DNA from: Ensifer sp. Root278
Lineage (GTDB): Bacteria > Pseudomonadota > Alphaproteobacteria > Rhizobiales > Rhizobiaceae
Assembly: GCF_001429285.1 (NCBI RefSeq)
Contig: NZ_LMJJ01000003.1
Span: 144,662 to 208,661 of the forward strand
Reading direction: 5' to 3'
Length of the DNA stretch: 64,000 nucleotides
Shown here piece after piece: positions 7,571 to 63,666 of the stretch. A program made the translations under genes and the position numbers. Under the pieces are notes generated by a model. The model did no database searches and was not told the DNA's origin. It saw only the letters and a program-made list of their open reading frames with translations. Position 1 is the first letter of the stretch, and every line of letters begins with the position of its first letter.

Positions 7571-7642
7571 GGGAATATAGGCGCTGGATGGAAGCCTGAT
7601 GGCCCTTCCGCGGCGTTTGTTTCCGGACGATCGAGAGCAGTT

Positions 7643-45515: not shown

Positions 45516-46817
45516 TCAATCAGCCGGAAAAGGCAGACCGTAGCGCTCCCTGACGGTTCGCTCTTCATAGTGGCTGCGATAGACACCGCGGTCCTGCAGG
45601 ATGGGGACGACCTTCTTTACGAACTCCTCGATATCGTCAGGCGCTCGTGGCGGCTGAAGCGTGTAGCCGTCGACGGTCCCGTCCTCCCAAAGATCGATGA
45701 GCGCATCGGCAACCTCTTCCGGCGTTCCAAGCAGCAGACGGTGGTGCCCCTCCGAGCGGCGTACTGCCTGCCTTGCCGTTAGTTTCTCATGTGTCAGCAG
45801 ATCGGAAAGCCCGAGACCCATACCGACCGCCTGAAGACGGTTGGGATCCGGGATAAAGCGCTCGGCATCCAGCGCCGCATCTGGATCGAAACCGTCAGGA
45901 TCGATGCCGTTCTCCTTGACGAACCGTGCGATCAGGCCGTCTTCCGAACCGGCGCCGCTGAAGAGTTCGTGCTTGCGCAAGGCTTCTTCTTTCGTCTCGC
46001 CGAGGATCACCACTACCCCGGGCACGATCCGGATACCCTTGGGGTCACGACCAAGCGCTGCGGCGCGATCCCTGACCTTCTTGCCGAAGGCCTGGCCGGC
46101 CGGCCGGGAGAGGATGTTGCAATAGATGATCTCGCCGTGGCGGGCGGCGAGCTCGATGCCCCCTTCGGACGCACCCGCCTGCGCAATCACCGGATGGCCC
46201 TGCGGGCCGCGCGGCACATTCAGCGGTCCCTTGACGGTGAAATGATCGCCCTCGTGGTCGATCGAATGCGCACTCTCGGCATCCCAGAACCGTTCGTCGG
46301 GCACATCGCCTTCCCGGGCTGGATCCCAGCTCGCCCAGAGCTTCTTGGCGACGTCGAGGAATTCGGACGCTTTCGCGTAGCGCTCCGCTCTCGGAGGCAG
46401 CGGTGCGGAGCCGAAATTGGCGGCCACGTTCGGATTGAAGGAGGAGACGATGTTGATGATCAGGCGGCCGCCGGAAACGATGTCGGTCGATTGGGTGCGG
46501 CGGGCAAGATTGTAGGGCGAATTGTAGGTCGACGACATCGTTGCGACAAAGCCGATGTCAGGCACCTGTGCCGCAAGCGCCGTACAGAGGATCAGCGGGT
46601 CGATGGTATGGAATGGCCGGCTGTCCGGGTCAGTCATCAATGCCGGATGATCGGAAAAGAACACGGCGTCAAACCGACCTTTGTGGGCGAGTTCGGTCAG
46701 GCGTCTGTAGTATTGCGGATCATAGATGTCATGGCGGCTGCCGCTGCGGTATTTCCAGGCGGCCGGCAGGTAGCCGGTAGTATTGATGCCGACATTGATG
46801 TTGAGCGTTCGGGGCAT
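45516..46817 (-). CDS. DszA/NtaA/SnaA-type flavin-dependent monooxygenase
   Basis: A 433-residue luciferase-like TIM-barrel protein of the DszA/NtaA group: LNINVGINTTGYLPAAWK, GRFDAVFFSDHPAL, ATMSSTYNSPYNLARR, GRLIINIVSSFNPNVAANF, HPVIAQAGASEGGIELAA and CNILSRPAGQAFGKKV. Known members use FMNH2 and O2 to open a sulfone, chelate or similar bond. In this operon, with two DszB-like and DszC-like proteins, a role in C-S bond oxidation is the best guess. It is the last gene of the seven-gene minus-strand operon. It needs reduced flavin from a reductase not evident nearby. Confidence 0.88.
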   Translation of the reverse strand: MPRTLNINVGINTTGYLPAAWKYRSGSRHDIYDPQYYRRLTELAHKGRFDAVFFSDHPALMTDPDSRPFHTIDPLILCTALAAQVPDIGFVATMSSTYNSPYNLARRTQSTDIVSGGRLIINIVSSFNPNVAANFGSAPLPPRAERYAKASEFLDVAKKLWASWDPAREGDVPDERFWDAESAHSIDHEGDHFTVKGPLNVPRGPQGHPVIAQAGASEGGIELAARHGEIIYCNILSRPAGQAFGKKVRDRAAALGRDPKGIRIVPGVVVILGETKEEALRKHELFSGAGSEDGLIARFVKENGIDPDGFDPDAALDAERFIPDPNRLQAVGMGLGLSDLLTHEKLTARQAVRRSEGHHRLLLGTPEEVADALIDLWEDGTVDGYTLQPPRAPDDIEEFVKKVVPILQDRGVYRSHYEERTVRERYGLPFPAD

Positions 46818-46832
46818 GCGAATGAAGGTCCT

Positions 46833-47483
46833 TCAGTAGGCCGCGGTGAAACGGCGGCGGATGAACTGTCTCTTGTCGAGTTCATCGAGAATGGCGATGG
46901 CGAAATCCGCTTCGGAGATCCGGCTTTCGCCCGCTTCGTCGCGCAGCAGCGCATCTTCGCCGAGCCGGAAGCGGCCGGTCCTCTCGCCGGATTTGATGGA
47001 GAGAGGCGGGGAGACATAGGTCCAGTCGAGGTCGTGCTCGCCGCGTTTCAAGCTGCGAAGGATCTCGCGGTTGCGCAGGGTATGGGCCTTGTGTTCGGCG
47101 GGATAAAAATCGCTGTCGACGACGTCGATGCCGGGGCTTGCCTCCAGGCTTCCAACGCCGCCGACGATGATGATGCGGCCAACGCCCGTGCGCTTGACGC
47201 CTTCGAAAAGGGAGGCATGCGCTTTCTCGATGAGAACCGCCGCATCTTCCGCCGAATGCCGACGAAGACCAGGACTATAGGCGCTGATGACCGCGTCGTG
47301 GCCGGCCACGATCTTTGCCACCTCCTCCGGGTCGGCAATATCCGCTTTCAGAACGGTCAGGCGTTCGGCAGGCTCCACATCGGAGGCATGTGTTACCGCT
47401 GTCACCCGATGGCCGCGCGACAGGGCCTCTTTGCGAATGTTGCTGCCGATATTTCCGGACGCACCGAAGACGACGATAGACAT
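46833..47483 (-). CDS. NAD(P)-binding oxidoreductase (NmrA/BLVRB-like atypical SDR)
   Basis: A 216-residue Rossmann protein. The nucleotide motif is VVFGASGNIGSNIRKEA (4-20), followed by DAVISAYSPG, GRIIIVGGVGSLEA and LDWTYVSPPLSI, the pattern of NAD(P)H-binding proteins related to flavin/biliverdin reductase B and YwnB. It has no canonical Tyr-x-x-x-Lys site. It could reduce flavin for the monooxygenases in the operon, which would solve the missing-reductase problem, but this is only an inference. It lies 15 nt upstream of the DszA-like gene. Confidence 0.78.
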   Translation of the reverse strand: MSIVVFGASGNIGSNIRKEALSRGHRVTAVTHASDVEPAERLTVLKADIADPEEVAKIVAGHDAVISAYSPGLRRHSAEDAAVLIEKAHASLFEGVKRTGVGRIIIVGGVGSLEASPGIDVVDSDFYPAEHKAHTLRNREILRSLKRGEHDLDWTYVSPPLSIKSGERTGRFRLGEDALLRDEAGESRISEADFAIAILDELDKRQFIRRRFTAAY

Positions 47484-47501: not shown

Positions 47502-48752
47502 CTAGAGGGCAGGTATCGCCTTGAGCGGTCGATTGGCGCCGACATTGCGCTGCATGGCGGAAAGCGAGGACCGCACGGCTTCGTAGCCGTGTTCGCGCAT
47601 GGCGTTTTCGTAGTCGTTCACAGCGGCAAGCTGTGGCTTGCCGAAGCGCCGTGCGGCGACAAGCTCGCGAACGAGCAATCCGGCATCGTAGAGGGCGGTG
47701 TTGCCGCCAAGCGCGCGGAAATAGGTCATCGCGTGGATCGCGTCGCCGAGCAGCGTCACCGGCCCGCTTTGCCATACCGCGCCGGGGGTGGAGCTCTTGA
47801 CCTTGAGGAAGGCCACCGTCGACGGGTCGCTGTGGCGAATGAGCTTCAGGATGCGCTCGTCCCAGTGTCCGATGCGCTGAAGGAGCGTTTCGAGCAGGGC
47901 ATTACCGTCGAGAGATTCAAGCTCCTCGTCTGGCCCGAGCTCGTCGGTATCGTAGGCCGTGTTCCACCAGGTGTAGCTGGTCGAGTTGTTGAAGTGGAAG
48001 CCGGGGATGTCGCGGTGGCCGGGGTCTTCTGCACTGACAAAGTCGTAGCGGGCATAGACGGATGGATCGACCCGGTGGCTGGTGATCATCAGGCCGCGGC
48101 CGTCGCGCGGGCGAATGTTGGTATTGAACTCCGTGAGAAGCGGTGAGATGCCCCGTCGCTCAGCCTCGTCGATCGTGATCTTGCCGGCCAGCCGGCGCAC
48201 GCCGGTGTCGATGCTCTTGAGGTCCGGCAGGAGCTGGCGGCGTACCGCCGATCCCGCTCCATCGGCCCCGACCAGAAGATTGGCGCGCACGGCCAAGCCG
48301 TCGGAGAAATGCGCAAGCACCGTTCCGTCGGCAAGCTGCTCGTAGCGCTCGAACCGTTTGCCTGTGTGAAAGACGCCGTCGAGCCCGGACAGAAGGATCT
48401 GGCGGAGTGTGATCCGGCTGACCGACTTCTCGATGTGGGTATCTTCGGGCTCTGGGGCCGCCTGTCCGGCATCCTCCAGACGGTTGAACCTTTCGTCGAG
48501 GACCAGGTTCTCGGTCGGCGCAAGCCCAAGCGTATCGAGGAAAGCGTGAAAGAGATGGGCCGGCAGGTTCGCCTGAAGCGCGTCAATACCGCGTTGCCGG
48601 ATCCGCATTCGGAAGCCTTGTACATAGTCCGAGCGGACCGGGTCGCGCTCGAAGATGGCGGTGTCGATGCCGTTCTTCCTGAGGCCCTGCGCCAGGGCGA
48701 GGCCGCCCGGTCCTCCACCGATGATGGCGACGTCGACGAAGGGTATGGTCAT
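47502..48752 (-). CDS. FAD-dependent monooxygenase (PHBH-type)
   Basis: A 416-residue class A flavoprotein monooxygenase. GGGPGGLALAQGL binds ADP at 12-24, LLVGADGAGSAVRRQL is the DG motif region, and VTLLGDAIHAMTYFRALGGNTAL is the GD motif with altered ending (usual is GDAAH...P..G.G). It uses NAD(P)H and O2 to hydroxylate a substrate without help from a separate reductase. It overlaps the upstream NmrA-like gene by 4 nt. The substrate may be the desulfurised product. Confidence 0.87.
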   Translation of the reverse strand: MTIPFVDVAIIGGGPGGLALAQGLRKNGIDTAIFERDPVRSDYVQGFRMRIRQRGIDALQANLPAHLFHAFLDTLGLAPTENLVLDERFNRLEDAGQAAPEPEDTHIEKSVSRITLRQILLSGLDGVFHTGKRFERYEQLADGTVLAHFSDGLAVRANLLVGADGAGSAVRRQLLPDLKSIDTGVRRLAGKITIDEAERRGISPLLTEFNTNIRPRDGRGLMITSHRVDPSVYARYDFVSAEDPGHRDIPGFHFNNSTSYTWWNTAYDTDELGPDEELESLDGNALLETLLQRIGHWDERILKLIRHSDPSTVAFLKVKSSTPGAVWQSGPVTLLGDAIHAMTYFRALGGNTALYDAGLLVRELVAARRFGKPQLAAVNDYENAMREHGYEAVRSSLSAMQRNVGANRPLKAIPAL

Positions 48753-49627
48753 GGCTGATACTCGGGAACTGCAGCCGCTGTAGCGACCTGTTCCAAGATG
48801 AACGCTTCGACGGTCCGGGGCGGGCGGCCGAGCAGTGTCGGTACGATGTCGGTCGTCGTCGCGGCACGGCCGGCAGCGATCAACCTTGAAAATTGCGCAA
48901 CGGCGCGGTGTTCGAAGTCACCATCTTTGGGAACCGTCTGTGGTGGCTTCTCGAGGGCGGCAATCGGCCGTTTCAAGGCTGTCGTCAGTAGAGAAGCGAC
49001 CTGACGCAATGAGACTACGTCCGGGCCGGTGAGGCTGAGCGTGCGGCCCCGGACGCGATCGGCCAGGAGTTGATGCACGGCGATATCGGCAATGTCACGG
49101 GCGTCGATGTAGCCGATGCCGGCGTCGAGGTTGGCGGTGGCGACCTGGCCACTCGTGACCGCGTGCCTGATGGTGTTGGCGAGCGAGACCTGCATCCAGG
49201 CGTTGGGCCGAAGCGAAACGGTCTCCACCGGCAGGCCTTGCAGGTGACGTTCGACGGCAGCGTGTGCGGCCCCGGAGATCGAATTGCCGGCCGGTTCGAT
49301 CGTCCAGTCGGAGCCCGATATCTTGACGATGCGGGCAACGTTTCCGGCGGCGGCAGCATCGGCGACAGCGGTCTGATCCATCACGAGTCTGGCGCTGATG
49401 GGGGACAGCAGAAGAAGGCGCTCCACACCTCGAACGGCCGCGTCGAGCGCGGCGCGGTCGCCGAAATCGCCTGCGGCTATCTGGACAGTCTCGCCGAACA
49501 GGGCACGTGCCGTCTCCGGGCGTCGGGTAAAGACGCGAACCGGTTGCCCGAGCGCCACTAGCCGCTCGACGATCAGCCGCCCGAGTTTGCCCGTGGCGCC
49601 GGTAACGAGGATCGGCGTGGCGCTCAT
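48749..49627 (-). CDS. NmrA-like NAD(P)-binding protein
   Basis: A 292-residue atypical SDR. ILVTGATGKLGRLIVERL at 6-23 binds the dinucleotide. VKISGSDWTIEPAG, VSLRPNAWMQVSLA and YIDARDIADIAVHQLL follow the NmrA/quinone-reductase-2 pattern. Members are NAD(P)H-dependent quinone or ketone reductases or redox sensors. ATG 49627 overlaps the stop of the DszB-like gene (4 nt); the frame upstream of it lies inside that gene and is not used. The exact step is unknown. Confidence 0.82.
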   Translation of the reverse strand: MSATPILVTGATGKLGRLIVERLVALGQPVRVFTRRPETARALFGETVQIAAGDFGDRAALDAAVRGVERLLLLSPISARLVMDQTAVADAAAAGNVARIVKISGSDWTIEPAGNSISGAAHAAVERHLQGLPVETVSLRPNAWMQVSLANTIRHAVTSGQVATANLDAGIGYIDARDIADIAVHQLLADRVRGRTLSLTGPDVVSLRQVASLLTTALKRPIAALEKPPQTVPKDGDFEHRAVAQFSRLIAAGRAATTTDIVPTLLGRPPRTVEAFILEQVATAAAVPEYQP

Positions 49628-50658
49628 GCGGCGGACCGCTGCAATGTGGCCTCCAGCGGCCGGTGATCGATCCAACTGAAGACGTCGAAATCGGCTGGAA
49701 TGAAATCCCAATCGAGAAGGAAGCGTTTGAAGTGATCAAACGCGGCGATCTGGAGTTCGTCCAGTGCCAATCCAAGATGGAGATTGATGTCCGGGCCGTT
49801 GGCAGCCCAGACCGCGTCCTCGCCGACGCCGATCTCGTTGGCGATGAAGCGAACAGCCGTATCCGGGTTCGAGGCCGCCCAATCGCCGACGCTGGCGACG
49901 GTCGACACAAGATCGACAACGAGGTCGAAATGTTCGTCAAGAAAGCGAGCGTCGACCGTCAGTGGTCTCGGCGTGCCATTGTTGATGCGGATCTTCGGAT
50001 CCGGATGGAAGCCGAATTCCGCCACCACCACTGCACCGATCTGATTGGCGAGCACGATACCTTCGGCACCCTTGACGAAGAAAGCGTCGATCTTGCCCGA
50101 GGCCAGGGCCAAAAGTTCGTCGCCATAGGGATATCGGCGCTTCAAGCCCAGGAAGGCGGCATTACCCCGTTCGACCAGGTTGCCCTCCTCGGTGTCGAGA
50201 TAGACGAGTTCGACATTGCCGGGATCGAGGCCGTCGAGCGAAAGCGCCGAGACGATGCCTTTCAAGGCGGTGGCCCGCTGGAAGTCTACGACGTCGGAAT
50301 TGGGTTTGCGTGGCACGCCGATGCGGCGTCCTTTCAAGTCTTTCGCCACAGCGATGCCGGAACCTGGAAGCGCGATGATCGCCTGGAATTCGTCTGTCGT
50401 GGTGATGCCGACGACGCGTGTCTCGCGACCACCGGATCGCGCCCAAATCGGTGGAATGTTGCCGCCCTGCCGGAACGAGTAATCCAGCGCATGGGTAAAG
50501 TGGCTCTGCCGGACCGACGGATCCTTGCTGTCGCGGATCGAGCGCACGGCAACGCCGGCGTTCTGAAACTGTTTGTCGAGCCAGCCGAGTTGATGGGCGA
50601 TCGACAGCGGGGTCGGGGCGGGGCAGCGTGTGTACCAGACGGAATCGAGGGAAGACAT
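49624..50658 (-). CDS. DszB-like sulfinate desulfinase candidate, copy 1
   Basis: A 344-residue protein with the periplasmic-binding-protein fold pattern but no signal peptide. The N-terminus reads VWYTRCPAPTPLSIAHQLGWL, then SHFTHALDYSFRQGGNIPPI, VVGITTTDEF and KGRRIGVPRK. Compared with DszB of Rhodococcus (Cys27, His60, Arg70, Gly73), Cys12, His53, Arg63 and Gly66 are all present with the same His-to-Arg-to-Gly spacing. It would cleave a sulfinate to sulfite. Databases usually name such proteins ABC sulfonate-binding proteins; the lack of an export signal argues against that. ATG 50658 is chosen because TAGGAG is 7 nt upstream. Confidence 0.75.
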   Translation of the reverse strand: MSSLDSVWYTRCPAPTPLSIAHQLGWLDKQFQNAGVAVRSIRDSKDPSVRQSHFTHALDYSFRQGGNIPPIWARSGGRETRVVGITTTDEFQAIIALPGSGIAVAKDLKGRRIGVPRKPNSDVVDFQRATALKGIVSALSLDGLDPGNVELVYLDTEEGNLVERGNAAFLGLKRRYPYGDELLALASGKIDAFFVKGAEGIVLANQIGAVVVAEFGFHPDPKIRINNGTPRPLTVDARFLDEHFDLVVDLVSTVASVGDWAASNPDTAVRFIANEIGVGEDAVWAANGPDINLHLGLALDELQIAAFDHFKRFLLDWDFIPADFDVFSWIDHRPLEATLQRSAA

Positions 50659-50668
50659 CATAAAACTC

Positions 50669-51901
50669 CTAGCTGCGGCCGGCGACTGCAAGGCGGGGCT
50701 GGTGGTGAGACCGAACCGGCACCGGCTCCAGCGCAACGGCAGATGCTGCGGCGTGGCGGCTGAACGCGGCCTTGGCGAGCATCGTCCGGATGAGGTTGTT
50801 CTGCGGCGCGTGCGCCTTGCCAGAGAGGGCGTCACGATGGTGACGCTCCAGCGGATTGTCGCGGCTGATGCCGGGGTTGCCGCCAAGCTCAAGGGCAAGG
50901 GTTGTCACCGTGATTGCATTGGCGATCACCGTATGTTTGACCGCGGCAGCGTCAGCGCCGAAGGCGCGCCCCGTATCGAAATCCTCGGCAATCGAACGCA
51001 GGAGCCTGCGATTGACTGTCAGCAAGACCTCGATCTCGCCAAGGCCGTCCTGAATGCGGGGGACAGTCGAAAGCGGTGCGCCGAGGCTTGCCGGTGCCCG
51101 CGAGGTGGTAAAGTCGATCAGCCAGTCGCGGGCGCCCTGCGCGGCGCCGTCATAGATTGCCGGGACAAGGCTGAAATACCAGGCACCCATGCGTTCGTCG
51201 CGTTTCAGGCCCTCCCTCGCCGGCGCGATGTCGAGAACATCCTCCAGCGGGATCGCGACGTCATCGAGGATCAGGTCGTCGCTGTTGGTTGCCCGCATGC
51301 CCGTGGCGTTCCAGGTCTTTTCGACGCGAATACCATCGGCCGACGTCGGTACGAGGAACGAACCCAGCCTCGGCTCCGGCTCGTCGGTGACCGCAAGGAC
51401 CGCCACCCAGCGCAGCAGCGGGATGCCGGTGGCATAGGTCTTGTGGCCGGTGATGCGCCACTGGTCGCCAACGCGCCGGGCAATGGTTTCCGGCAACGAC
51501 CCATGCGATGGCGAACCGACGCGCGGCTCCACCTGCGCGGCATTGATCAGCGCGACGCCCTCGCGATTGGCCCTGGTAACACGCTCGACCAGGTGCTGTG
51601 GCCACTTGCCTGAGGTGCGCACCGAATAGTGCTGGTTGTAGTGCATTGAAAGAACGAGGGCGGTCGACGGCTCTCCGCGGGCTATTGCCGAGATGACGGC
51701 GAGCGCCTCCGTCAATCCGCCGCCGAGGCCGCCGTGCTCGGGCGCCGTTACCAGGCCAAGCAGTCCCGCCTCATGGAGCGCGTCGAAATTGGCGAAAGGG
51801 AATTCGCCGGTTTCATCGTAGTGGCGCGCTGTGAGGGCGAAGCGTTTTCCGAGCTCTTCGGCCTTGGCAATCACCAGCTCGAAACGTGTGGGATCGGTCA
51901 T
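50669..51901 (-). CDS. DszC/SfnB-like acyl-CoA-dehydrogenase-fold flavin monooxygenase, copy 1
   Basis: A 410-residue protein with the acyl-CoA dehydrogenase fold: FDALHEAGLLGLVTAPEHGG, RVGDQWRITGHKTYATGIP, TWNATGMRATNSDDLILDDV and a C-terminal LELGGNPGISRDNPLERHHRD. The last motif is typical for the DszC/SfnB/IBAH group, which oxidises sulfur or carbon with reduced flavin and O2 rather than dehydrogenating acyl-CoA. It lies between the two DszB-like genes (10-nt and 13-nt gaps), which strongly ties it to sulfur chemistry. The second member of this group in the window is at 62.4 kb. Confidence 0.82.
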   Translation of the reverse strand: MTDPTRFELVIAKAEELGKRFALTARHYDETGEFPFANFDALHEAGLLGLVTAPEHGGLGGGLTEALAVISAIARGEPSTALVLSMHYNQHYSVRTSGKWPQHLVERVTRANREGVALINAAQVEPRVGSPSHGSLPETIARRVGDQWRITGHKTYATGIPLLRWVAVLAVTDEPEPRLGSFLVPTSADGIRVEKTWNATGMRATNSDDLILDDVAIPLEDVLDIAPAREGLKRDERMGAWYFSLVPAIYDGAAQGARDWLIDFTTSRAPASLGAPLSTVPRIQDGLGEIEVLLTVNRRLLRSIAEDFDTGRAFGADAAAVKHTVIANAITVTTLALELGGNPGISRDNPLERHHRDALSGKAHAPQNNLIRTMLAKAAFSRHAAASAVALEPVPVRSHHQPRLAVAGRS

Positions 51902-51914
51902 TTGTTGCTCTCGT

Positions 51915-52955
51915 TCAGGCGACAGCGCGGATGTCGAGTTCCGCCCAGGGACGGTGGTCGACCCATGCGTCGATGTCGAAGTTCTCGGCCAGGAACCCCC
52001 ATTGATGCAGGAAGTCCTTGTAGTGCCCGATCGCCGCGACGAGTTCCGGTTCGAGGCCGATGCCGAGATGCCTGTGCAGATCCGGACCGTTGGCCGCAGC
52101 CACGACCTCTTCGGATGCGCCGACTTCGCGAGCAACCAAGCGGCGCGCCTCTTCGGGGTGCTCTTCGGCCCAGGCGCCGGCTTGCTTTAGCGTCGCGATC
52201 AGCTTGGCGACGAGGTCAGGACGATCTTCCGCCAGCCGTTCATCGACGGTCAGCACCCGTGGGGAGCCGGAATTGATGCGGATCTTCGGGTCCGGGTGGA
52301 AACCGAATTCCGCGACCGTGTGAGCCGCAAAGAGATTGGCAACGGCAATACCGGGCGTGCCTTTGACATAAATCGCGTCCACCTCGCCGCGCAGCAGTGC
52401 GGCCACTTCCGGCCCGTAGGCCTGCCGGTTTCTGAGGCCGTAGAGCTGCGGGCCCTCCCTGCCATCAAGAACGCTTTCGGAAAGCGGGATATCGACGATC
52501 TGGACATCGGAGGGCGTGAGCCCTTCGAGCGACAGAGCGGAAACCAGGCCCTTCAGCGCCGTTGCGGCCATGAAGTCGATGATACCGGGTGGTCGGCGCG
52601 CAATGCCGAAGCGTCGGCCGACAAGATCGCGCGTCGTTTTGATCCCGGTCCCGGGCAACGTGATGATGGCCTGGAATTCGTCGGTCCAAGTGATGCCGAC
52701 CAGGCGTGTCGGGTTGCCTTCCGAGCGGGCGCGGATCGGCGGGACGTTGCCGCCATGGCGAAACGAATAATCGAGATGGTGATCGAAGTGGCTGGATCGG
52801 ACGGAGCGGTCCTTGCTGTCGATGATCGAGTTAAGCGTAATGCCCTCCGCGGCAAACGCCTTGTCGAGCAGGCCGAGCTGGGTGGCGAGCCCCACGGGTG
52901 TCGGGACAGGGCAGCGCGTGTACCAGATTTGCGAGATGGCATTTTTGCGTGTCAC
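51915..52955 (-). CDS. DszB-like sulfinate desulfinase candidate, copy 2
   Basis: A 346-residue paralogue of the protein at 49.6 kb: IWYTRCPVPTPVGLATQLGLL, SHFDHHLDYSFRHGGNVPPI, LVGITWTDEF and VGRRFGIARR. Cys15, His56, Arg66 and Gly69 match the DszB catalytic residues with identical spacing between His, Arg and Gly. Again there is no signal peptide or lipobox, so it is cytoplasmic. It is the first gene of the operon. Divergence from copy 1 outside the active site suggests a different sulfinate substrate or a heteromeric role. Confidence 0.75.
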   Translation of the reverse strand: MTRKNAISQIWYTRCPVPTPVGLATQLGLLDKAFAAEGITLNSIIDSKDRSVRSSHFDHHLDYSFRHGGNVPPIRARSEGNPTRLVGITWTDEFQAIITLPGTGIKTTRDLVGRRFGIARRPPGIIDFMAATALKGLVSALSLEGLTPSDVQIVDIPLSESVLDGREGPQLYGLRNRQAYGPEVAALLRGEVDAIYVKGTPGIAVANLFAAHTVAEFGFHPDPKIRINSGSPRVLTVDERLAEDRPDLVAKLIATLKQAGAWAEEHPEEARRLVAREVGASEEVVAAANGPDLHRHLGIGLEPELVAAIGHYKDFLHQWGFLAENFDIDAWVDHRPWAELDIRAVA

Positions 52956-53108: not shown

Positions 53109-53254
53109 TAAGTGGCTAATCTCAGGGCGAAATTACTAAAACAGATTTGACAAAGCCTATGTAATTAGTCAACTATAAAAATCATCCGCGGCGAAGGGTC
53201 AGGCCGAGGTGAAGGTTCGCTGTTGGCGGACGGCCAAACGGAGAGGCGACATCG

Positions 53255-54241
53255 ATGCCGGTGCTGATCAGAATTGCGCGAACGCTTCGACGAACGCTTC
53301 TGCAGGCGGTTCCGACGATCCTTGGAATTGTGATCCTGAATTTCTTCCTTTTGCAGCTGGCTCCCGGCGACGCGGCCGATGTTCTGGCCGGCGAGGCGGG
53401 TTCGGCGACCGAAGAAAGCGTTGCGGCGCTGAGAGCCCGCTTCGGGCTGGATAGCCCGGTGCTCGAACAATTGGCCACCTATCTCGGCAACCTCGCGCAA
53501 TTCAGCCTCGGCTTTTCCCCGCGCTACGGCATGCCGGTCGCCGATCTGATTGCCCAGCGGCTGCCCGGAACACTGACGCTGATGGCGGTCGCGCTCCTCA
53601 TCGCGATCCTGCTCGGTGTCATCCTCGGATCGCTGATGGCGACCTTTGCGGGCCGGATCCCCGACCGCCTGCTGTCGGTGTTCTCGTTGCTCTTCTACTC
53701 GATCCCGAGCTTCTGGATCGGCCTGATGCTGATCGTGCTCTTTTCGGTCAAGCTCGGCTGGCTGCCGAGCGGCGGTGCGGGCACGATCGGATCCCAGCTG
53801 AAAGGATTCCCGGCGTTGCTCGACAAGGCCCGCTACATGGTGCTGCCGGCGACCTCGCTCGCGCTGTTCTACGTTGCGATCTACGCGCGGCTGACCCGTG
53901 CCGCCATGCTCGAAGTCAAGAACCAAGATTTCGTCCGCACCGCCTATGCCAAGGGGTTGACGCCGTTTGGCGTGACGGCAAGGCACATTCTGCGCAACGC
54001 GCTGATCCCGATCACGACCATGGCCGGCATGCATATCGGCGGTATGCTCGGCGGCGCCGTGGTGGTGGAAACCGTCTACAGTTGGCCGGGTCTCGGCAGG
54101 CTTGCCTTCGAGGCGGTCATGGGCCGGGATTTCACCGTGCTGCTCGGCATCCTGCTTCTGTCCTCTCTTCTCGTCATCATTGCCAATGCCGCCGTGGACC
54201 TCGTCCACGCCTGGCTCGACCCTCGAATTGGAGCGCGCTGA
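53255..54241 (+). CDS. Dipeptide-type ABC transporter permease (DppB-like)
   Basis: A 328-residue inner-membrane protein. The N-terminal membrane segment lies in a VPTILGIVILNFFLLQLAPGD context. The standard DppB pattern follows: RFGLDSPVLEQLATYLGNLA, VLGVILGSLMATFAG region, SVFSLLFYSIPSFWIGLM and the EAA region FVRTAYAKGLTPFGVTARHILRNALIP. It imports oligopeptide-like or other polar organic compounds. It is the first gene of the plus-strand operon, divergent from the DszB/DszC operon, and overlaps the next gene by one base. Confidence 0.92.
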   Translation: MPVLIRIARTLRRTLLQAVPTILGIVILNFFLLQLAPGDAADVLAGEAGSATEESVAALRARFGLDSPVLEQLATYLGNLAQFSLGFSPRYGMPVADLIAQRLPGTLTLMAVALLIAILLGVILGSLMATFAGRIPDRLLSVFSLLFYSIPSFWIGLMLIVLFSVKLGWLPSGGAGTIGSQLKGFPALLDKARYMVLPATSLALFYVAIYARLTRAAMLEVKNQDFVRTAYAKGLTPFGVTARHILRNALIPITTMAGMHIGGMLGGAVVVETVYSWPGLGRLAFEAVMGRDFTVLLGILLLSSLLVIIANAAVDLVHAWLDPRIGAR

Positions 54242-55239
54242 TGTCCACCACCGACTTCGGGGCTTTTCCTGCTGTCACCGGCGGCGCCTATGCTGCTCCG
54301 GCGACGAACGAGCAGGCAACCGCGCCGGAACGTCCGTCCTGGTCAAACATGAAGGCGCCTGACGCGCGTTCCCAGCCAAACGCTGCGGTCGCCGTCACCA
54401 ATGGGCACCGGGCGCTGAAGGTCTTCTTCGCCAACCCCAATGCGCTGTTCGGCACCGCATTCCTTGCACTCGTCATCGCCGTCGCGCTGCTGGCGCCGGT
54501 GCTCTACCCCGACGACCCCCTGTCGATGGTCGGAAAACCGTTCCTGTGGCCGTGCCAGGATCCGGCTTTCCCGCTCGGTACGGATTCACTTGGGCGCGAC
54601 GTGCTCGCCGGCATCCTGCATGGTTCGCGCATCTCCCTGTTCGTGGGGCTGGTGGCGACGGCCCTCGGCCTCACCTTCGGCGTGGTCGTCGGCGCGATTG
54701 CCGGTTATTTCGGCGGCTGGGTCGACGACCTTCTGGTGAGGCTCATCGAGATCTTCCAGACCCTGCCGAGCTTCGTGCTTCTTGTCGTTCTGGTTGCGAT
54801 CGTCCAACCCTCGGCCACGACGGTGACGCTTGCGATCGCCGTTATCTCCTGGCCAACGGTCGCGCGGCTGACGAGGGCCGAGTTTCGCGCGATCCGCGAG
54901 AAGGATTTCGTCATGGCTGCCCGCAGCCTCGGCGTTGGCCATGGGCGGATCATCTTCCGCGAGATCCTGCCGAACGCGCTGCCGCCGATCATCGTCACGT
55001 CTTCGGTCATGGTCGCAACCGCAATCCTGATGGAATCGGCGCTTTCCTTCATGGGGCTCGGCGACCCGAACGTGGTGAGCTGGGGGTCGATGATCGGCAC
55101 TGGCCGCGAACTGGTCAGAACGGCCTGGTACCTGACAGCTCTTCCGGGCTTGGCCATCGTCTTCACGGTGCTTGCGCTCAATCTCATCGGCGACGGGCTG
55201 AATGACGCCCTCAACCCCCGGTTCTCGCAGGACCGTTGA
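54241..55239 (+). CDS. Dipeptide-type ABC transporter permease (DppC-like)
   Basis: A 332-residue inner-membrane protein. A soluble N-terminal extension of about 60 residues, rich in Ala, Pro and Thr, precedes the first membrane segment (LFGTAFLALVIAVALLAPVL). The core carries PLGTDSLGRDVLAGILHGSRISLFVG, the signature of DppC proteins, and the EAA region FVMAARSLGVGHGRIIFREILPNALPP. It pairs with the DppB-like permease. The extension is longer than in most DppC proteins and has no evident function. Confidence 0.92.
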   Translation: MSTTDFGAFPAVTGGAYAAPATNEQATAPERPSWSNMKAPDARSQPNAAVAVTNGHRALKVFFANPNALFGTAFLALVIAVALLAPVLYPDDPLSMVGKPFLWPCQDPAFPLGTDSLGRDVLAGILHGSRISLFVGLVATALGLTFGVVVGAIAGYFGGWVDDLLVRLIEIFQTLPSFVLLVVLVAIVQPSATTVTLAIAVISWPTVARLTRAEFRAIREKDFVMAARSLGVGHGRIIFREILPNALPPIIVTSSVMVATAILMESALSFMGLGDPNVVSWGSMIGTGRELVRTAWYLTALPGLAIVFTVLALNLIGDGLNDALNPRFSQDR

Positions 55240-55241
55240 CA

Positions 55242-56240
55242 ATGGCGCCGCTGCTTCAGGTCGAAAACCTCACCATCGGCTTTCCGCGCGCTGAACCGGT
55301 CCGGGATCTTTCCTTTGAGGTCAGCGCCGGCGAGACACTGGCGATCGTCGGAGAATCCGGCTCGGGCAAATCGCTGACGGCACTTGCCCTGATGCAGTTG
55401 CTGCCGCGCACAGCACGGGTCACCAGTGGCCGCATCGTCTTTGACGACCGCGATCTTCTCGGTCTCGATGCGCGCGAGATGCGGCAGCTGCGCGGGCGCG
55501 AGATCGCCATGATCTTTCAGGAGCCGATGACGAGCCTCAATCCCGTCATGTCGATCGGCTGGCAGATCGGCGAAGTGCTGAAGGTGCATGAGAAGCTCTC
55601 GGGCAGGGCGGCGCGCGAACGGGCGATCGAACTCCTGAGGCTCGTGCGCATCCCGGCCGCCGAAAAGCGGGTCGACGACTATCCCCACCAGCTCTCGGGC
55701 GGCATGCGACAGCGGGTTATGATCGCCATGGCCGTTGCCTGCCGGCCGAAACTCTTGATCGCCGACGAACCGACGACCGCGCTCGACGTGACGATCCAGG
55801 CGCAGGTGCTCGACCTGCTCGACACGCTCAGACGCGAACTGCAGATGGCGGTGGTGTTGATCACCCACGACCTCGGCGTCGTCGCGCAATGGGCCGACAA
55901 GGTCGTCGTCATGTATGCCGGCCGCAAGGTCGAGCAGGCTCTCCCCGGGGATCTCTTCAACGATCCGCTGCATCCCTATACGCGCGGGCTGCTTTCGGCC
56001 TCGCCACGTCTGAAGAGCGACTTTCACTATCTGAGCGGTCGCTTGACCGAGATCCCCGGGTCGATCGTCTCGGCGGCCGGCGAGGCCGGCTGTCCCTTCA
56101 GGCCGCGCTGTCGCCAGGCGCGTGCGAGCTGCGGCCATCAGGTGCCGCCGCTGATTGCTCAGACGCCGGAGAGGCTCGTTGCCTGCCCGTTCACCTCGTC
56201 CCTCAAGGCCGTCCCCGATGCCGCTTCTCTCAGCCTCTGA
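55242..56240 (+). CDS. Dipeptide-type ABC transporter ATPase (DppD-like)
   Basis: A 332-residue ATPase with Walker A GESGSGKS at 37-44, the signature [14 protein letters not shown], Walker [15 protein letters not shown] and the C-terminal oligopeptide-ABC cysteine-containing tail ([16 protein letters not shown]), which in this family can bind an iron-sulfur cluster. ATG 55242 starts 3 nt after the permease stop. It works as a heterodimer with the next gene product. Confidence 0.93.
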
Positions 56241-57162
56241 TCTCAAGACCCATTACAACACCCGCGACGGCCTCTTGCGCTCCGTCGATGGCGTCGATCT
56301 CGTGGTCGAGCGCGGTGAAACCGTCGGGCTAGTCGGCGAAAGCGGCTGTGGCAAATCGACCCTTGGCAAGACGCTGTTGCGGTTGGTCGATCCGACCGCT
56401 GGACGGATCGAATTCAAGGGCGAAGACATCACGACCCTTGATCAGGGGCGGCTCCGAAACGTTCGCAAGTCGATCCAGATGATCTTCCAGGATCCCTTCG
56501 CCTCGCTCAATCCGCGCCACACGATCGGTGAAATCCTCGAAGCACCGCTGGTCGTCCACAAGGCTGGCGGCCGGCCGGAGCGGCGGCGCACTGTCGCCGG
56601 TATCATCGCCAAGGTCGGGCTGCCCGCCGATGCCATCAATCGTTACCCCCACGAATTCTCCGGCGGCCAGCGGCAAAGGATCGGCATTGCCCGGGCGCTG
56701 CTGCTCAACCCGGAGCTGATCGTCTGCGACGAGCCGGTTTCGGCGCTCGACCTGTCGATCCAGGCGCAGATCCTGAACCTTTTGGTGGAGATGAAGAAGG
56801 AGTTCGGCCTTTCCTATCTCTTCATCAGCCATGACCTGTCTGTGGTGCGCTATTTCTGCGACCGGGTTCTGGTCATGTATCTCGGCCGGATCGTGGAAAG
56901 CGCCGACAATGAAACGCTCTGGTCGGACCCGCGCCATCCCTATACGCGCGCTTTGATGGCTGCGGTTCCCGATCCCTCGCGGCCGCGGCAGGCGGCTCCC
57001 CTTGGCGGCGATCTGCCGAGCCCGAGCGACATTCCGTCGGGCTGTCGGTTCCACACCCGCTGCCCGCTGGCGACGGACCTCTGCCGCGTCACCGAACCCG
57101 AATTCCGCACCATCAAACCCGGCCATCAGGTGGCCTGTCATGTCGCGGACCACATCAACTGA
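56218..57162 (+). CDS. Dipeptide-type ABC transporter ATPase (DppF-like)
   Basis: A 314-residue ATPase with Walker [10 protein letters not shown] at 40-48, the signature [15 protein letters not shown], Walker [15 protein letters not shown] and the C-terminal cysteine tail ([15 protein letters not shown]). Its ATG at 56218 lies 23 nt inside the end of the DppD-like gene. It completes the importer; the periplasmic binding protein is encoded separately at 60.7 kb. Confidence 0.93.
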
Positions 57163-57176
57163 AATGGAGAACTTGA

Positions 57177-58238
57177 ATGGTTGAGTATCGCTATCTTGGG
57201 CGCAGCGCCCTCAAAGTGTCGCCGCTGACGCTCGGATCCATGATGTTCGGCAACCAGACGCCGGACGACGTTGCCTTCCGCATCATCGACAAGGCGCGCG
57301 AGCAAGGCATTAACTTCATCGACACGGCCGACGTCTACCACGACGGCAAGTCGGAAGAGGTGGTGGGACGCGGCATCAAGGCGCATCGCGACCATTGGGT
57401 CGTGGCGACGAAGTTCGTCAATTCGCGTGCGAAGGGGCCGAACCTCGGGGGCTATTCGCGCAAATGGGTCTATCAGACAGTCGAAAACTCGCTGCGCAAT
57501 CTCGGCACGGACTATATCGACATTCTCTATTTCCACCGCGCCGTCTTCGATGCTCCGCTCGAAGAGCCGGTGCGGGCAATCGCCGACCTGATCAAGGCTG
57601 GCAAGCTGCGCTATTTCGGGGTCTCGAACTTCCGGGGATGGCGCATCGCGGAAGTCGCCCATCTCGCCGACCAGCTCGGAATTGACCGGCCTATTGCAAG
57701 CCAGCCGCTCTACAACATCGTCAACCGCACCGCCGAGGCCGAGCAGTTGCCGGCGGCTGCCGCCTACGGTCTGGGTGCCGTATCCTACAGCCCGCTCGCC
57801 CGCGGCGTTCTGACGGGCAAGTACAATCCGGGCGAAGCCCCGGCTGCGGACACACGCGCCGGGCGTGGCGACAAGCGCATGCACGACGTCGAGTTTCGCG
57901 AGGAATCGATTGCGATCGCCAAGCAGATCGCAGCGCACGCTCAGGCCAAGGGTATTGCGGCCGCCGATTTTGCGCTCGCGTGGGTGCTGAACAATCGGCT
58001 GATCACCTCGACCATCGCAGGGCCGCGCACGGAAGAGCATTGGGATGCCTATATCCGCGCGCTTGACATCAAGCTCGATGCGGAAGACGAGGCTTTGGTC
58101 GACCGGCTCGTCGCGCCTGGTCATCCGTCAACCCCGGGCTTCACCGATCCAGGCCATCCGCTCGAGGGACGCGAGCCGCGTTTCGGAGCTACGGAAGCCG
58201 AGATCATTCCGCTTGCCCGTTCGCAGCGCGTTGCCTGA
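57177..58238 (+). CDS. Aldo/keto reductase
   Basis: A 353-residue TIM-barrel AKR with the complete tetrad Asp49, Tyr54, Lys79 and His120 (FIDTADVYHDG, VVATKF, ILYFHRAV). It resembles the YajO/Gre3-like and potassium-channel-beta-type AKRs. It would reduce an aldehyde or ketone with NADPH. Its place at the end of the transporter operon suggests it handles the carbonyl product left after C-S cleavage. A bidirectional terminator-like hairpin lies after it. Confidence 0.9.
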   Translation: MVEYRYLGRSALKVSPLTLGSMMFGNQTPDDVAFRIIDKAREQGINFIDTADVYHDGKSEEVVGRGIKAHRDHWVVATKFVNSRAKGPNLGGYSRKWVYQTVENSLRNLGTDYIDILYFHRAVFDAPLEEPVRAIADLIKAGKLRYFGVSNFRGWRIAEVAHLADQLGIDRPIASQPLYNIVNRTAEAEQLPAAAAYGLGAVSYSPLARGVLTGKYNPGEAPAADTRAGRGDKRMHDVEFREESIAIAKQIAAHAQAKGIAAADFALAWVLNNRLITSTIAGPRTEEHWDAYIRALDIKLDAEDEALVDRLVAPGHPSTPGFTDPGHPLEGREPRFGATEAEIIPLARSQRVA

Positions 58239-58325: not shown

Positions 58326-59279
58326 TTATTCCGCCGCCACCGCCTGATCGTGGCGCAGGCCGAGGAGGCGCCGGGCGTTGCCGCCAGCAACGAGACGTGC
58401 CTCCTGATCGCTTAGCCCGGCTTGCGCCAAGCTCTGCCGCAACGAGTCCGCATCGAGCGCGGGAAGAATTGGCCAGTCCGTGCCGGCAAGCACGCGGTCT
58501 GCGCCGAAAAAGCCTGTCAGCGTGCGCACGATGTCCGGATCATGCCCCATCGTGTCGAAGTAGATATTGGGCCGTCGCCCCGCTTCACGGTGGGAGCGAG
58601 CATAGATGCCGCCGCGTGCCGCCTGGACGATTGCCCCAAGGCCGAGTGTTGCAAAGACCAGATGCAGGTCCGGCAGTTCGTCGAGCAGCGAAGACTGGAT
58701 GACCGACAGGAAGGCGACGCCGTTCATCAATCCACGCCCGAGCGAATTGCCGAGATTGCCGGCGCCGTCGATCAGAACCCCGGCGTCCGGGTGGGCAACG
58801 GGATGCACAAAAACCGGAACCCTGTGACGCGCCGCGACTTCGAGTGTTGGTCGGACTGCGGGATCGGCGATGAACTTGCCGTCGCGCGAAGAGTCGATAA
58901 CCAGTCCTGAAAGGTCCAGCTCCACGATCGCCCGTTCGGCCTCGCGTGCCGCTTCATCGCCGGCGAAGGCATCGACGACGGCAAATCCGGTGAGTGTCGG
59001 ATGCTCGCGAGAAAGCGTCGCCAGCCAGTCGTTGGCTTCCCGGACCGCTTCGAGCGGCACGCTCCCTTTCATTCCGAAGAGGCTTTCGATCGTCGCGGTG
59101 ACCACGGCAAGCGATACACCGCTTTGTTCAAGCTCATCGACCAGCGCCTGGGGCGTGGTGATCTTTCGGTGTATGTCCGGCGCAAATGCACCAGCAGGCT
59201 TTTCGTATCTCCCGCCGGGGCGCCAGGCTGGCGGCCAGAGATGGGCATGGATGTCGACGATATCGAGCGGCGTGGTCAT
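58326..59279 (-). CDS. Metal-dependent amidohydrolase (PF04909 type)
   Basis: A 317-residue TIM-barrel hydrolase. The N-terminal DIHAHLWPP gives the metal ligands His11 and His13. The middle part has VPVFVHPVAHP, and the C-terminal YFDTMGHDPDIVRTLTGFFGADRVLAGTDWPI carries the last metal Asp. The family includes decarboxylases and lactone or amide hydrolases such as ACMSD-like enzymes. It overlaps the upstream luciferase-like gene by 4 nt, so both act in one pathway. The substrate is unknown. Confidence 0.88.
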   Translation of the reverse strand: MTTPLDIVDIHAHLWPPAWRPGGRYEKPAGAFAPDIHRKITTPQALVDELEQSGVSLAVVTATIESLFGMKGSVPLEAVREANDWLATLSREHPTLTGFAVVDAFAGDEAAREAERAIVELDLSGLVIDSSRDGKFIADPAVRPTLEVAARHRVPVFVHPVAHPDAGVLIDGAGNLGNSLGRGLMNGVAFLSVIQSSLLDELPDLHLVFATLGLGAIVQAARGGIYARSHREAGRRPNIYFDTMGHDPDIVRTLTGFFGADRVLAGTDWPILPALDADSLRQSLAQAGLSDQEARLVAGGNARRLLGLRHDQAVAAE

Positions 59280-60376
59280 TCGGCGGCAACCTTTCTCGCT
59301 TCGCGTTCAGCGATACCGGCTTTGACGAGGGGCACGACATCGCGGCCATAGGTGACGGTATCCTCCGTCGGGTAGAAACCGCGGACGAGGAAGTTTGAAA
59401 CGCCGGCGTCATAGTAGTCGAGGATGGCGTCGGCGACCTGTTCGGGCGTTCCGACCAGCGCGGTCGAGTTTCCGCCGGCGCCACTCGCTTCTGCGACCTC
59501 GGTCCAGAGCCGCTTGTCCAGCACCTTGCCGCGTCTGGCGGCCTCCCGCAGGCGAACAGAACCGACGTTCGACGGCAGCTTCTCGCCATTGCCGCCGGCC
59601 GAGCGCGCAACCTGCGACTTGACCTTATCGAGGATATCCGCCGCCTTTGCCCAGGCTGCGTCTTCGGTTTCCGCCACCACGGTGCGAAAGGCGAGGGTGA
59701 AGCGGATATCGTCTGCCGCGCGACCATTGGCAATCGCCGCGGTCCGTACCTTGCCGATGGTTTCCCGTGCGCCGTCGAGCGGCTCGCCCCAGAGCGCATA
59801 GACATCCGCGTGCTTGCCGGCAACGGCGATCGCCGCATCGGACGAACCGCCGAAGGAAATCGGGATGCGGGGCTTCTGGAACGGCTTTACCTGGCTATAG
59901 GCGCCCTTGAACCTGTAGAAGCGCCCCTCGTGATCGAAGGGCTGATCGCTCTCCCAGACTTTCCTCAGCACTTGCAGGTACTCGTCGGTGCGGGCGTAGC
60001 GGGTGTCGTGATCCTCGAAGTCGCCGTCGCGAGCCTGGTCCGTGTCGGATCCGCCGGTGATGATATGCACCCACAAGCGGCCCTCGGAGAACTGATCGAG
60101 GGTGGCAAGCTGGCGCGCGCCGAGTGTCGGGGCCATCAGGCCGGGCCGGTGGGCAAGCAGCGCCCCGATCCGTTCCGTCTGGCTGAAGACATAGGCGGCG
60201 ATCTGGTTGTTGTCGGGCCATTGCGCGAATTGGCCGATGAGCAGACGGTCGATGCCCGCCGCTTCCGCCGCCTGAACATGATTGCGGATGTAGGCCTTAT
60301 CGATGACCGGACCGGAGGCGGGGACGATGTCGGACCCCTCCCTGTTTGACGTGTGGCCGATAAATTCGGGTCGCAT
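59276..60376 (-). CDS. SsuD/SfnG-like FMNH2-dependent monooxygenase
   Basis: A 366-residue luciferase-like protein of the alkanesulfonate-monooxygenase type: FIGHTSNREGSD at the N-terminus, IDRLLIGQFAQWPDNNQIAAYV, HRPGLMAPTLGARQLATLDQFS, GRLWVHIITGGSDTDQARDGDF and PISFGGSSDAAIAVAGKHADVYALWGEP. SsuD and SfnG split C-S bonds of sulfonates or sulfones to aldehyde and sulfite. The ATG at 60376 is chosen because AAGGAG lies 5 nt upstream. It is the first gene of a two-gene operon. Confidence 0.88.
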   Translation of the reverse strand: MRPEFIGHTSNREGSDIVPASGPVIDKAYIRNHVQAAEAAGIDRLLIGQFAQWPDNNQIAAYVFSQTERIGALLAHRPGLMAPTLGARQLATLDQFSEGRLWVHIITGGSDTDQARDGDFEDHDTRYARTDEYLQVLRKVWESDQPFDHEGRFYRFKGAYSQVKPFQKPRIPISFGGSSDAAIAVAGKHADVYALWGEPLDGARETIGKVRTAAIANGRAADDIRFTLAFRTVVAETEDAAWAKAADILDKVKSQVARSAGGNGEKLPSNVGSVRLREAARRGKVLDKRLWTEVAEASGAGGNSTALVGTPEQVADAILDYYDAGVSNFLVRGFYPTEDTVTYGRDVVPLVKAGIAEREARKVAAE

Positions 60377-60720
60377 GGGAACTCCTTCGGAAAGCAAGCA
60401 CGTGAATGATGTAATCTATTTATTTGATGTATTTTGTCGATTGCGTTTTGCCGGTGGATCTTGGGATGGATTGTCGCGCGCTCATCGAAACGAGAACTTT
60501 TCCTCCATCGAAACGGTCCTGCCGGCGCGTCACCCTCTCCCTGTGAACATCAGGGACGCGGCAAACGGAGTGGCCTGAGTAGCTTTTTTCAGAAAAGCCG
60601 CGGACTTTAGAATTACACTATCTCGATAAATATAGTAGATTTTATAAGGTCTGGCGATCACCCTGGTGGGTGCTGGAGAAATCGGCGTGGCCTGTGCTTC
60701 GCCTGCTTGGGGATATTCAG
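60377..60720. promoter_or_regulatory. Divergent promoter region between the SsuD-like and binding-protein genes
   Basis: An AT-rich region with no convincing gene. A hairpin GCTTTT-TTCAG-AAAAGC is at 60581-60597 and an interrupted repeat ACTAT...ATAGT is at about 60617-60635. It should hold both promoters. I cannot assign -35/-10 pairs with confidence. Confidence 0.4.
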
Positions 60721-62442: not shown

Positions 62443-63666
62443 GTGACGATAACCAAGGTGCTGACCGTTTCCCGTCCGACACGCGCGGAACTTCTCGCGC
62501 GCGTTCCGGGCTTTGTGTCCGAGGTCGCCAAGGGCGCGGCCGAGCGAGATCTGTCGCGCAAGCTTCCCTTCGAAGCTTTCGAGCTCTTCCGCGAACTGGA
62601 GCTTGGAACCTTGCGCATCCCGGTCGCACTCGGGGGACCGGGCGGGTCGGTCGCCGACTATATCGAGATGATCGCCGCAATCGGTGCTGCCGATTCCAAC
62701 GTGGCGCACGCCCTAAGGTCGCATTTCAACTATGTCGAAAACGTCATCCTCAGCGAGCCGCGCGAGCGGGATGCCGGGGCGATCGAGCTGATCCTGGCCG
62801 GAAAGCTCTTCGGCGGCGCCCATACTGAGCAAGGTACGGCACGTCCGGGCCAGGTGACGACGACGATCGTCAGGCAGGGCGACACCTACAGGCTGAATGG
62901 CCGCAAATGGTACGCCACAGGCACGGCCTTCGCCGACTTCGCCTCGTTCAGTGCGCTGGACGAGGAAGGGCAGGCCGTCGGTGTTCTCCTGCCGGTCGAC
63001 AGGGAGGGCATCACCATTCTCGACGATTGGGATGGCATGGGACAGCGGCTGACTGCAAGTGGAGGCGTGATCCTCGACAATGTCGAGGTGTTCCCGCACG
63101 AGATGGCCCGCCGCGCCCTCGACAATCTCGTGGGGCGCCATTGCTCGACGCTGCGACAGTTGCACCTGGCGGCAAGTGCTGCCGGCGCAGTGCGCAACGT
63201 CCTTTCCGATGGACTTGCCTATGTCCGCAAGCAGGCGCGCTCCGCCGCCCACAGCAGCGCCGAAACGGCCAATCAGGATCCTTTCGTCCAGCAGGTCATC
63301 GGCGAAATTTCGGCCAATTCCTTCGCGATCGACACGGCGATTGCCGCGGCGGCAGTTGCACTCGATCAGACAGTTGCCGCGCTTGGCGAGGGGGTGGACG
63401 CCGAGATCGAGGACGCCTTGATCGCCAGCTCCCGTGCGACAGCGCAAGCGCAGCTTGTAATTGGCCAGCTCGGATTGCGAAGTGCGGAGCGCATGTTTGA
63501 GCTCGGCGGTGGCTCGGCGACGTCCCGCAACAACAACTTCGATCGGCACTGGCGCAACATCCGCACCGTACTCAACCACAACCCCCTCTCGCACAAGGCG
63601 AGGGTGCTGGGCGACTACCTGGTTAACGGGACGACCACCCATCTGAGGGAAGGAAAGGTGTTTTGA
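62443..63666 (+). CDS. DszC/SfnB-like flavin monooxygenase, copy 2
   Basis: A 407-residue acyl-CoA-dehydrogenase-fold protein. RIPVALGGPGGSVADYIEMIA, VAHALRSHFNYVENVIL, YRLNGRKWYATGTAFADF, WDGMGQRLTASGGVILDNV and especially the C-terminal NNFDRHWRNIRTVLNHNPLSHKARVLGDY place it with SfnB and DszC, the FMNH2-dependent sulfur-compound monooxygenases. The GTG start at 62443 is supported by GGAG 7 nt upstream. It lies 90 nt after the binding-protein gene on the same strand, so the importer and this enzyme are probably co-expressed. Confidence 0.88.
   Translation: MTITKVLTVSRPTRAELLARVPGFVSEVAKGAAERDLSRKLPFEAFELFRELELGTLRIPVALGGPGGSVADYIEMIAAIGAADSNVAHALRSHFNYVENVILSEPRERDAGAIELILAGKLFGGAHTEQGTARPGQVTTTIVRQGDTYRLNGRKWYATGTAFADFASFSALDEEGQAVGVLLPVDREGITILDDWDGMGQRLTASGGVILDNVEVFPHEMARRALDNLVGRHCSTLRQLHLAASAAGAVRNVLSDGLAYVRKQARSAAHSSAETANQDPFVQQVIGEISANSFAIDTAIAAAAVALDQTVAALGEGVDAEIEDALIASSRATAQAQLVIGQLGLRSAERMFELGGGSATSRNNNFDRHWRNIRTVLNHNPLSHKARVLGDYLVNGTTTHLREGKVF

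Follow-up and report, generated by a model that had tools for sequence, protein, structure and literature searches.

Two predicted DszB-like sulfinate desulfinases in an importer-coupled, sulfur-sparing gene cluster of Ensifer sp. Root278

DszB, the desulfinase of the dibenzothiophene (4S) pathway, performs the slow step of biological oil desulfurization (PMC6100217). Its active site has been described by a cluster model of Cys27, His60, Arg70, Gly73 and Ser25, in which the Ser25 hydroxyl bonds the histidine; the C27S mutant is inactive, H60Q is about 17-fold slower, and R70I and R70K are insoluble (PMC6100217). The same paper cites an RXGG motif for DszB homologs, so this motif was already known in them, and the 4S enzymes are reported to contain very little Cys and Met (PMC8557817). 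Here we describe two DszB-like proteins, P0001 and P0002, and the gene cluster that encodes them in a 64,000-nucleotide stretch of Ensifer sp. Root278 DNA (contig NZ_LMJJ01000003.1, positions 144,662 to 208,661). This whole stretch is called the window below, and all positions are counted from its first letter.

Several other described systems are informative in understanding this locus. Strain IGTS8 has a second, chromosomal protein annotated SsuA/DszB that lies beside ssu genes (PMC8557817), so DszB-like proteins have been seen outside the dsz operon before. The bdsABC genes of Gordonia terrae C-6, which turn benzothiophene into o-hydroxystyrene, resemble the window cluster in combining a desulfinase with two flavin monooxygenases and in their low similarity to dsz, but the host is actinobacterial (PMC3868597). 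Benzothiophene is also desulfurized by Sinorhizobium sp. KT55 (PMC3868597, citing Tanaka 2001), and dibenzothiophene by a Chelatococcus in which peptides matched known Dsz proteins (PMC4839641). Another Gordonia is reported to use dibenzothiophene without dsz genes or a DszB analog (PMC11852219), and by that report a desulfinase is not the only route. A search of one literature collection, by title or start of abstract, found no paper on rhizobial DszB-like proteins.

The two proteins and their relation to DszB and to exported binding proteins

51915..52955, minus strand: P0002, predicted DszB-like desulfinase 1, first gene of the operon; Cys15, His56, Arg66, Gly69 and Thr13
49624..50658, minus strand: P0001, predicted DszB-like desulfinase 2; Cys12, His53, Arg63 and Gly66

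We consider it likely, with a probability of about 0.74, that P0001 and P0002 act in the cytoplasm as sulfinate desulfinases and belong to a sister branch of DszB. This reading, which the initial annotation had proposed, is supported by the residues, the Protein Data Bank (PDB) matches, the tree and the start sites described in this section. Both genes lie on the minus strand where that annotation had placed them, and they encode the YTRCP(A/V)PTP-type motif with the spacing it gave. P0002 (346 amino acids) begins at a GTG codon at 52955 with GGAG ahead of it, and its N-terminus and later conserved segment read VTRKNAISQIWYTRCPVPTP and SHFDHHLDYSFRHGGNVPPI. P0001 (344 amino acids, ending at 49624) begins at an ATG at 50658 or 50661 with AGGAG ahead of it; the corresponding segments are MSSLDSVWYTRCPAPTP and SHFTHALDYSFRQGGNIPPI, and the two proteins are 54% identical.

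The start sites matter for the location of the proteins. Three in-frame stops lie within 40 codons upstream of the P0002 start, which excludes a longer hidden leader, and the motif already falls inside its first 15 residues. The P0001 frame is open upstream, but the extension overlaps the preceding gene, and the open reading frame listed as 49624–50898 is too long by about 80 codons. The signal peptide said to be absent from both proteins is indeed not seen; judged from start sites and upstream stops rather than by a predictor, both are probably leaderless and cytoplasmic.

Cys12/His53/Arg63/Gly66 of P0001 and Cys15/His56/Arg66/Gly69 of P0002 align, as had been claimed, with Cys27/His60/Arg70/Gly73 of the 365-residue Rhodococcus DszB. 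Cys, His and Arg do distinguish desulfinase-type proteins; Gly73, which had been counted with them as a mark, does not, as the E. coli proteins SsuA and TauA share it. These four residues of the DszB cluster model are identical in the window proteins, and the fifth, Ser25, is replaced by a threonine (Thr13) that keeps the hydroxyl and is present in 99–100% of the members of two branches. An alignment of 431 rows (324 proteins, including the window's own two, and 107 reading frames from related loci and the window) shows Cys at its position in 421 of the 424 rows without a gap there, His likewise in 425 of 427 and Arg in 427 of 428. Because these rows were gathered by similarity and partly repeat one another, they do not represent a random sample. 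Ten rows depart from the trio: seven have a gap in at least one of its positions, and the others are P0170 (Gly in place of Cys), P0204 (an ordinary binding protein) and a Devosia paralog discussed below. In a smaller table of 55 rows all three residues are present in 39 of the 40 desulfinase-type rows and in none of the 13 usable binding-protein rows (two of the 15 other rows were wrong reading frames).

The best PDB match of both proteins is DszB (2de2; E = 9.3e-16 for P0002 and 2.6e-12 for P0001), and SsuA-type chains match P0001 only (E = 0.02–0.03). These phmmer searches used single sequences, so they are independent of the alignment built here. In the tree, P0001 and P0002 group with DszB and apart from 13 exported-type binding proteins (support 100/99), which indicates common descent with DszB and a position not inside the exported SsuA/TauA proteins. 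The 12 DszB rows form a single clade (100/99), and the branch of the window proteins lies outside it (96/86); this position and the absence of a dszABC gene order agree with the suggestion of a branch outside the dibenzothiophene pathway. The tree left out own_L002 (Val/Gln/Ile at the three positions) and own_L008 (wrong frame). The genome has 12 places that match PF09084: the two window proteins, six (L001–L006) that are in the table or tree, L008, whose frame was not recovered, and three others that were left out.

Database names would make P0001 and P0002 ordinary SsuA/TauA-type sulfonate-binding proteins of an ATP-binding cassette (ABC) importer. Many relatives are recorded as ABC transporter substrate-binding protein, as the initial annotation had expected, and some databases call them desulfurase. 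The window proteins match PF09084 (the NMT1 fold) above its cut-off and share this fold and a scarcity of Cys and Met with SsuA and TauA; the predicted model is nearest to substrate-bound DszB (2de3), with SsuA the next-best fold. SsuA and TauA, however, are exported, lack the Cys/His/Arg set and are partnered with SsuBC or TauBC. P0001 and P0002 lack a leader, the tree sets them apart from the binding proteins, and the SsuA_fam model gives them only 62.6 and 78.9 bits against a cut-off of 163.5, as it does a true DszB (one tested, 65.4 bits). In the window from 38 kb on there is no SsuB/C-like match, and among 80 related loci such matches are confined to 19 (these loci are the best 80 of 102, come largely from Rhizobiales and were taken with up to 10 kb on either side); moreover, the importer of the cluster already has another binding protein, which has a leader. 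We therefore give almost no weight to a binding-protein function.

Sulfur-sparing composition and the single cysteine

The 12 soluble proteins of the cluster (the seven operon proteins and the aldo/keto reductase, amidohydrolase, SsuD-like, OppA-like and SfnB/DszC-like proteins listed below) contain only 0–1.23% Cys plus internal Met. The genome background, 238 predicted genes of at least 200 amino acids drawn from 20 of its stretches and filtered by GC at codon positions, with starts unrefined, has a mean of 3.29% (standard deviation 1.32), with 13 genes below 1.25% and three at or below 0.6%. Twenty-six other window genes, listed by hand, average 3.59%, and no depletion is seen in OppB, OppC, OppD and OppF (2.4 to 4.8%). 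By the same count Mycobacterium DszABC have 0.56–1.11%; E. coli TauA has no Cys and no Met, and SsuA has no Cys and three Met.

P0001 and P0002 have one Cys each, and it lies at the DszB catalytic position. Among P0001–P0122, 116 of the 120 proteins with 330 or more amino acids likewise have the catalytic Cys as their only one, as do 115 of 120 among P0205–P0324 and 36 of 74 DszB-type matches; the first copy in Sinorhizobium meliloti AK83, with two Cys, departs from this. A natural dead form is also present: the Devosia paralog (L055 1849–2895, the third in its genome) carries Ser and Tyr at the Cys and His positions and has an intact 348-residue frame with neither Cys nor internal Met. It indicates that in a depleted background an unneeded Cys disappears, and the retained single Cys is thus, at the level of sequence, the strongest evidence for a working catalytic Cys.

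The intact frame of this paralog also means that a noncatalytic role is possible for the fold, and P0001 and P0002 might then be cytoplasmic sensors or carriers that bind a sulfur compound through an inherited binding site. The second, P0001-type copy in 15 of the 80 loci would suit such a role. Mere binding would not need the Cys, as the same paralog illustrates, and retention of the catalytic Cys as the sole one amid Cys/Met depletion argues for catalysis; we find a sensor or carrier quite improbable.

Gene cluster, distribution and promoter dyad

The neighbors of the two desulfinase-like genes are as follows.

45516..46817, minus strand: luciferase-type flavin mononucleotide (FMN) monooxygenase of the NtaA/DmoA family (389 bits, cut-off 279.7)
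46833..47483, minus strand: NAD(P)H-binding protein (PF13460), possibly a flavin reductase; no Cys, no internal Met
47502..48752, minus strand: FAD-binding domain (PF01494) protein, group-A-monooxygenase-like, by domain match
48749..49627, minus strand: NmrA-like NAD(P)H-binding protein, by model search (first Met omitted from the query)
50669..51901, minus strand: acyl-CoA-dehydrogenase-type flavoprotein AcDH_A, between the two dszB-like genes; nearest PDB entry 5z8t, E = 1e-62
53146..53173, minus strand: 28-bp dyad GTTGACTAATTACATAGGCTTTGTCAAA in the divergent promoter region, candidate operator
53255..54241, plus strand: Opp/Dpp-type permease, OppB-like (ABC permease in the S. meliloti AK83 annotation)
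54241..55239, plus strand: Opp/Dpp-type permease, OppC-like
55236..56240, plus strand: Opp/Dpp-type ATPase, OppD-like
56218..57162, plus strand: Opp/Dpp-type ATPase, OppF-like
57177..58238, plus strand: aldo/keto reductase, sulfur-sparing
58326..59279, minus strand: amidohydrolase (PF04909), sulfur-sparing
59276..60397, minus strand: SsuD-like luciferase-type monooxygenase (SsuD models match below cut-off), sulfur-sparing
60670..62352, plus strand: family-5 solute-binding protein, OppA-like, with a twin-arginine-like leader by eye (start perhaps 60721), sulfur-sparing
62443..63666, plus strand: SfnB/DszC-like flavoprotein AcDH_B; nearest PDB entry 8cda, a probable monooxygenase, E = 3e-41

Judged by sequence similarity, the cluster contains a relative of each of DszA, DszB and DszC, although the monooxygenases themselves are not DszA or DszC. 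The NtaA/DmoA-family protein is nearest to an ethylenediaminetetraacetic acid (EDTA) monooxygenase (5dqp, E = 1e-91) and matches DszA (5tlc) at E = 6e-57. AcDH_B also matches TdsC (5xb8, E = 1e-32), MsuC (6u76, E = 1e-31) and DszC (4doy, E = 5e-27), and it scores 275 bits with the SfnB model without reaching the cut-off of 431; AcDH_A matches SfnB, DszC and several acyl-CoA dehydrogenase models, all below cut-off. Directly behind the operon there are transposase-like reading frames on the minus strand (44292–45294, by eye). On that flank S. meliloti AK83 has a sulfite oxidase gene (L009 19565–20959) that converges on the operon.

The importer genes and genes for an acyl-CoA-dehydrogenase-type and a luciferase-type protein occur together in 73 of the 80 related loci. 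Individually, OppA is found in 79, the luciferase-type monooxygenase and OppBCD in 78 each, the acyl-CoA-dehydrogenase-type gene in 77 and the aldo/keto reductase in 75; these loci are related to one another, and so the counts stand for fewer independent events than they suggest. In 69 loci the acyl-CoA-dehydrogenase-type gene is the next recognized gene downstream of the dszB-like gene, and one locus has three dszB-like copies. The dszB-like genes are accessory and patchy: they are carried by five of 16 genomes of the genus, with both copies each time, and six of 151 in a sample of the family have a match at E = 1e-20 or better. S. meliloti 2011 has both genes on pSymA, in two places, and in S. 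meliloti AK83 the annotated operon is on a plasmid, with seven genes on the dszB-like side. The cluster is also carried by a Chelatococcus genome (L061).

Some relatives have other surroundings. In Allorhizobium a second transport and luciferase-type cluster adjoins the dszB-like cluster (L010 12906–20325); it includes a TIGR04028 binding protein, a CMD protein and an alkylhydroperoxidase-like protein, and the three of its proteins that were measured are sulfur-poor. A Sphingobium plasmid (L012 4204–11047) carries three dszB-like genes, including 4204–5256 and 6689–7804, near ssu genes and an arylsulfatase gene. The R. johnstonii homolog (L014 7947–9122) is 23% identical and lies near homocysteine S-methyltransferase and amino-acid transport genes.

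The dyad has the core TTGAC-N16-GTCAA and occurs in 74 of the 80 loci with at most five mismatches in 26 scored positions, whereas the best sites in letter-shuffled controls of 20 loci have 8 to 11 mismatches; its left 17 bases have one further site in the genome, with two mismatches. In S. meliloti a single pSymB deletion raises two divergent operons, the five-gene sma2085–sma2077 and the eight-gene sma2087–sma2101 (PMC5940162). A location on pSymA and a divergent arrangement with five genes on one side lead us to infer that they are this cluster, even though the seven genes on the AK83 dszB-like side do not agree with the eight of sma2087–sma2101.

Proposed pathway and comparison with known systems

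In our best reading, the DszB-type enzymes found here form a branch of their own and are part of an importer-coupled, sulfur-sparing desulfurization cluster, and P0001 and P0002 would end a 4S-like pathway for an imported organosulfur compound. During sulfur starvation the Opp-type importer and its exported family-5 binding protein would take up this compound; the acyl-CoA-dehydrogenase-type monooxygenases (62443–63666 and perhaps 50669–51901) would oxidize its sulfur to a sulfone, and the DszA/NtaA-type monooxygenase (45516–46817) would cleave the C–S bond to give a sulfinate. P0001 and P0002 would then convert the sulfinate to sulfite and the desulfurized product. By the mechanism put forward for DszB, the sulfinate group would be exchanged for the Cys proton, with His stabilizing the thiolate and Arg holding the sulfinate. 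The sulfite would be assimilated, and the aldo/keto reductase may handle a carbonyl product. Homology, residues, the absent leader, gene context and sulfur-sparing composition are what the sequences show; all the reactions, their order, induction by sulfur starvation and the substrate we infer.

The window proteins resemble DszB and the 4S pathway in predicted fold, in Cys27/His60/Arg70/Gly73 and RXGG, in lacking a leader, in having few Cys and Met, and in lying near relatives of DszC and DszA. The cluster differs in having two copies, an Opp-type importer, an aldo/keto reductase and a conserved promoter dyad, and its DszA-, DszB- and DszC-like genes stand in another order than in the dszABC operon, together with the importer. 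The SfnB/SfnG, MsuC/MsuD and SsuD pathways use monooxygenases of the same families as the window neighbors and release sulfite from organosulfur compounds. To our knowledge, oxygenative C–S cleavage comes last in those pathways, and they need no DszB-type desulfinase.

A number of observations weigh against the desulfinase reading. We know of no activity for any member of this branch. The window proteins are only 22–28% identical to the DszB rows and lack an insertion found in DszB, and residues near the motif differ (Tyr68 to Ser, Ser25 to Thr, Asn26 to Arg); 2′-hydroxybiphenyl-2-sulfinate (HBPS) therefore need not be the substrate. The best match is to the NtaA/DszA references in only 59 of the 80 loci and to the SfnB/DszC-like reference in only 37. 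The sulfite oxidase beside the AK83 operon is not sulfur-sparing (3.24% Cys plus Met), the window's genome has a 92% identical sulfite oxidase gene on another contig, and the 13 of 238 background genes below 1.25% are as poor in Cys and Met as the cluster proteins. The R. johnstonii homolog keeps Cys/His/Arg yet has five Cys and 11 internal Met, so the trio alone is no proof of sulfur scavenging; this homolog may have another role, and its Aminobacter relative P0236 is sulfur-poor. The Sphingobium paralog at L012 4204–5256 lacks the His and, at 2.87%, is not sulfur-sparing.

The fold, finally, is also home to other enzymes (Thi5, MqnD and 4,5-dihydroxyphthalate decarboxylase). P0001 and P0002 could thus be cytoplasmic enzymes of the same fold acting on another leaving group, by decarboxylation or sulfonate C–S cleavage for example, and the differences in conserved residues flanking the motif would fit this. 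Set against it, the five residues in the DszB cluster model are all retained, one by conservative replacement, and the neighbors come from S-oxygenating and C–S-cleaving monooxygenase families. Thi5-like chemistry needs several cysteines (CCCFC in the active site of Thi5, the hydroxymethylpyrimidine phosphate (HMP-P) synthase), and the one Cys in each window protein rules against a Thi5 identity. We regard a different leaving group as unlikely and continue to favor sulfinate desulfination.

More tentatively, and at somewhat less than even odds, an importer-coupled 4S-like pathway may be scattered across rhizobia and their relatives and serve a natural, polar organosulfur compound of soil or plants; on this view the dibenzothiophene pathway would have branched off, in actinobacteria, from an older natural system, with benzothiophene desulfurization by Sinorhizobium a possible side activity. 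NCBIfam release 20.0 yielded no desulfinase model for the window proteins, and a true DszB (one tested) matches only SsuA models there, below their cut-offs. If the desulfinase reading is true, a large set of genes now named for transport would encode desulfinases. The cluster looks like a natural counterpart of the oil-desulfurizing pathway: it would offer enzymes with other pockets and, through the binding protein of the importer, a route to the substrate, and S. meliloti 2011, with its pSymA copies, would be a tractable host in which to study it.

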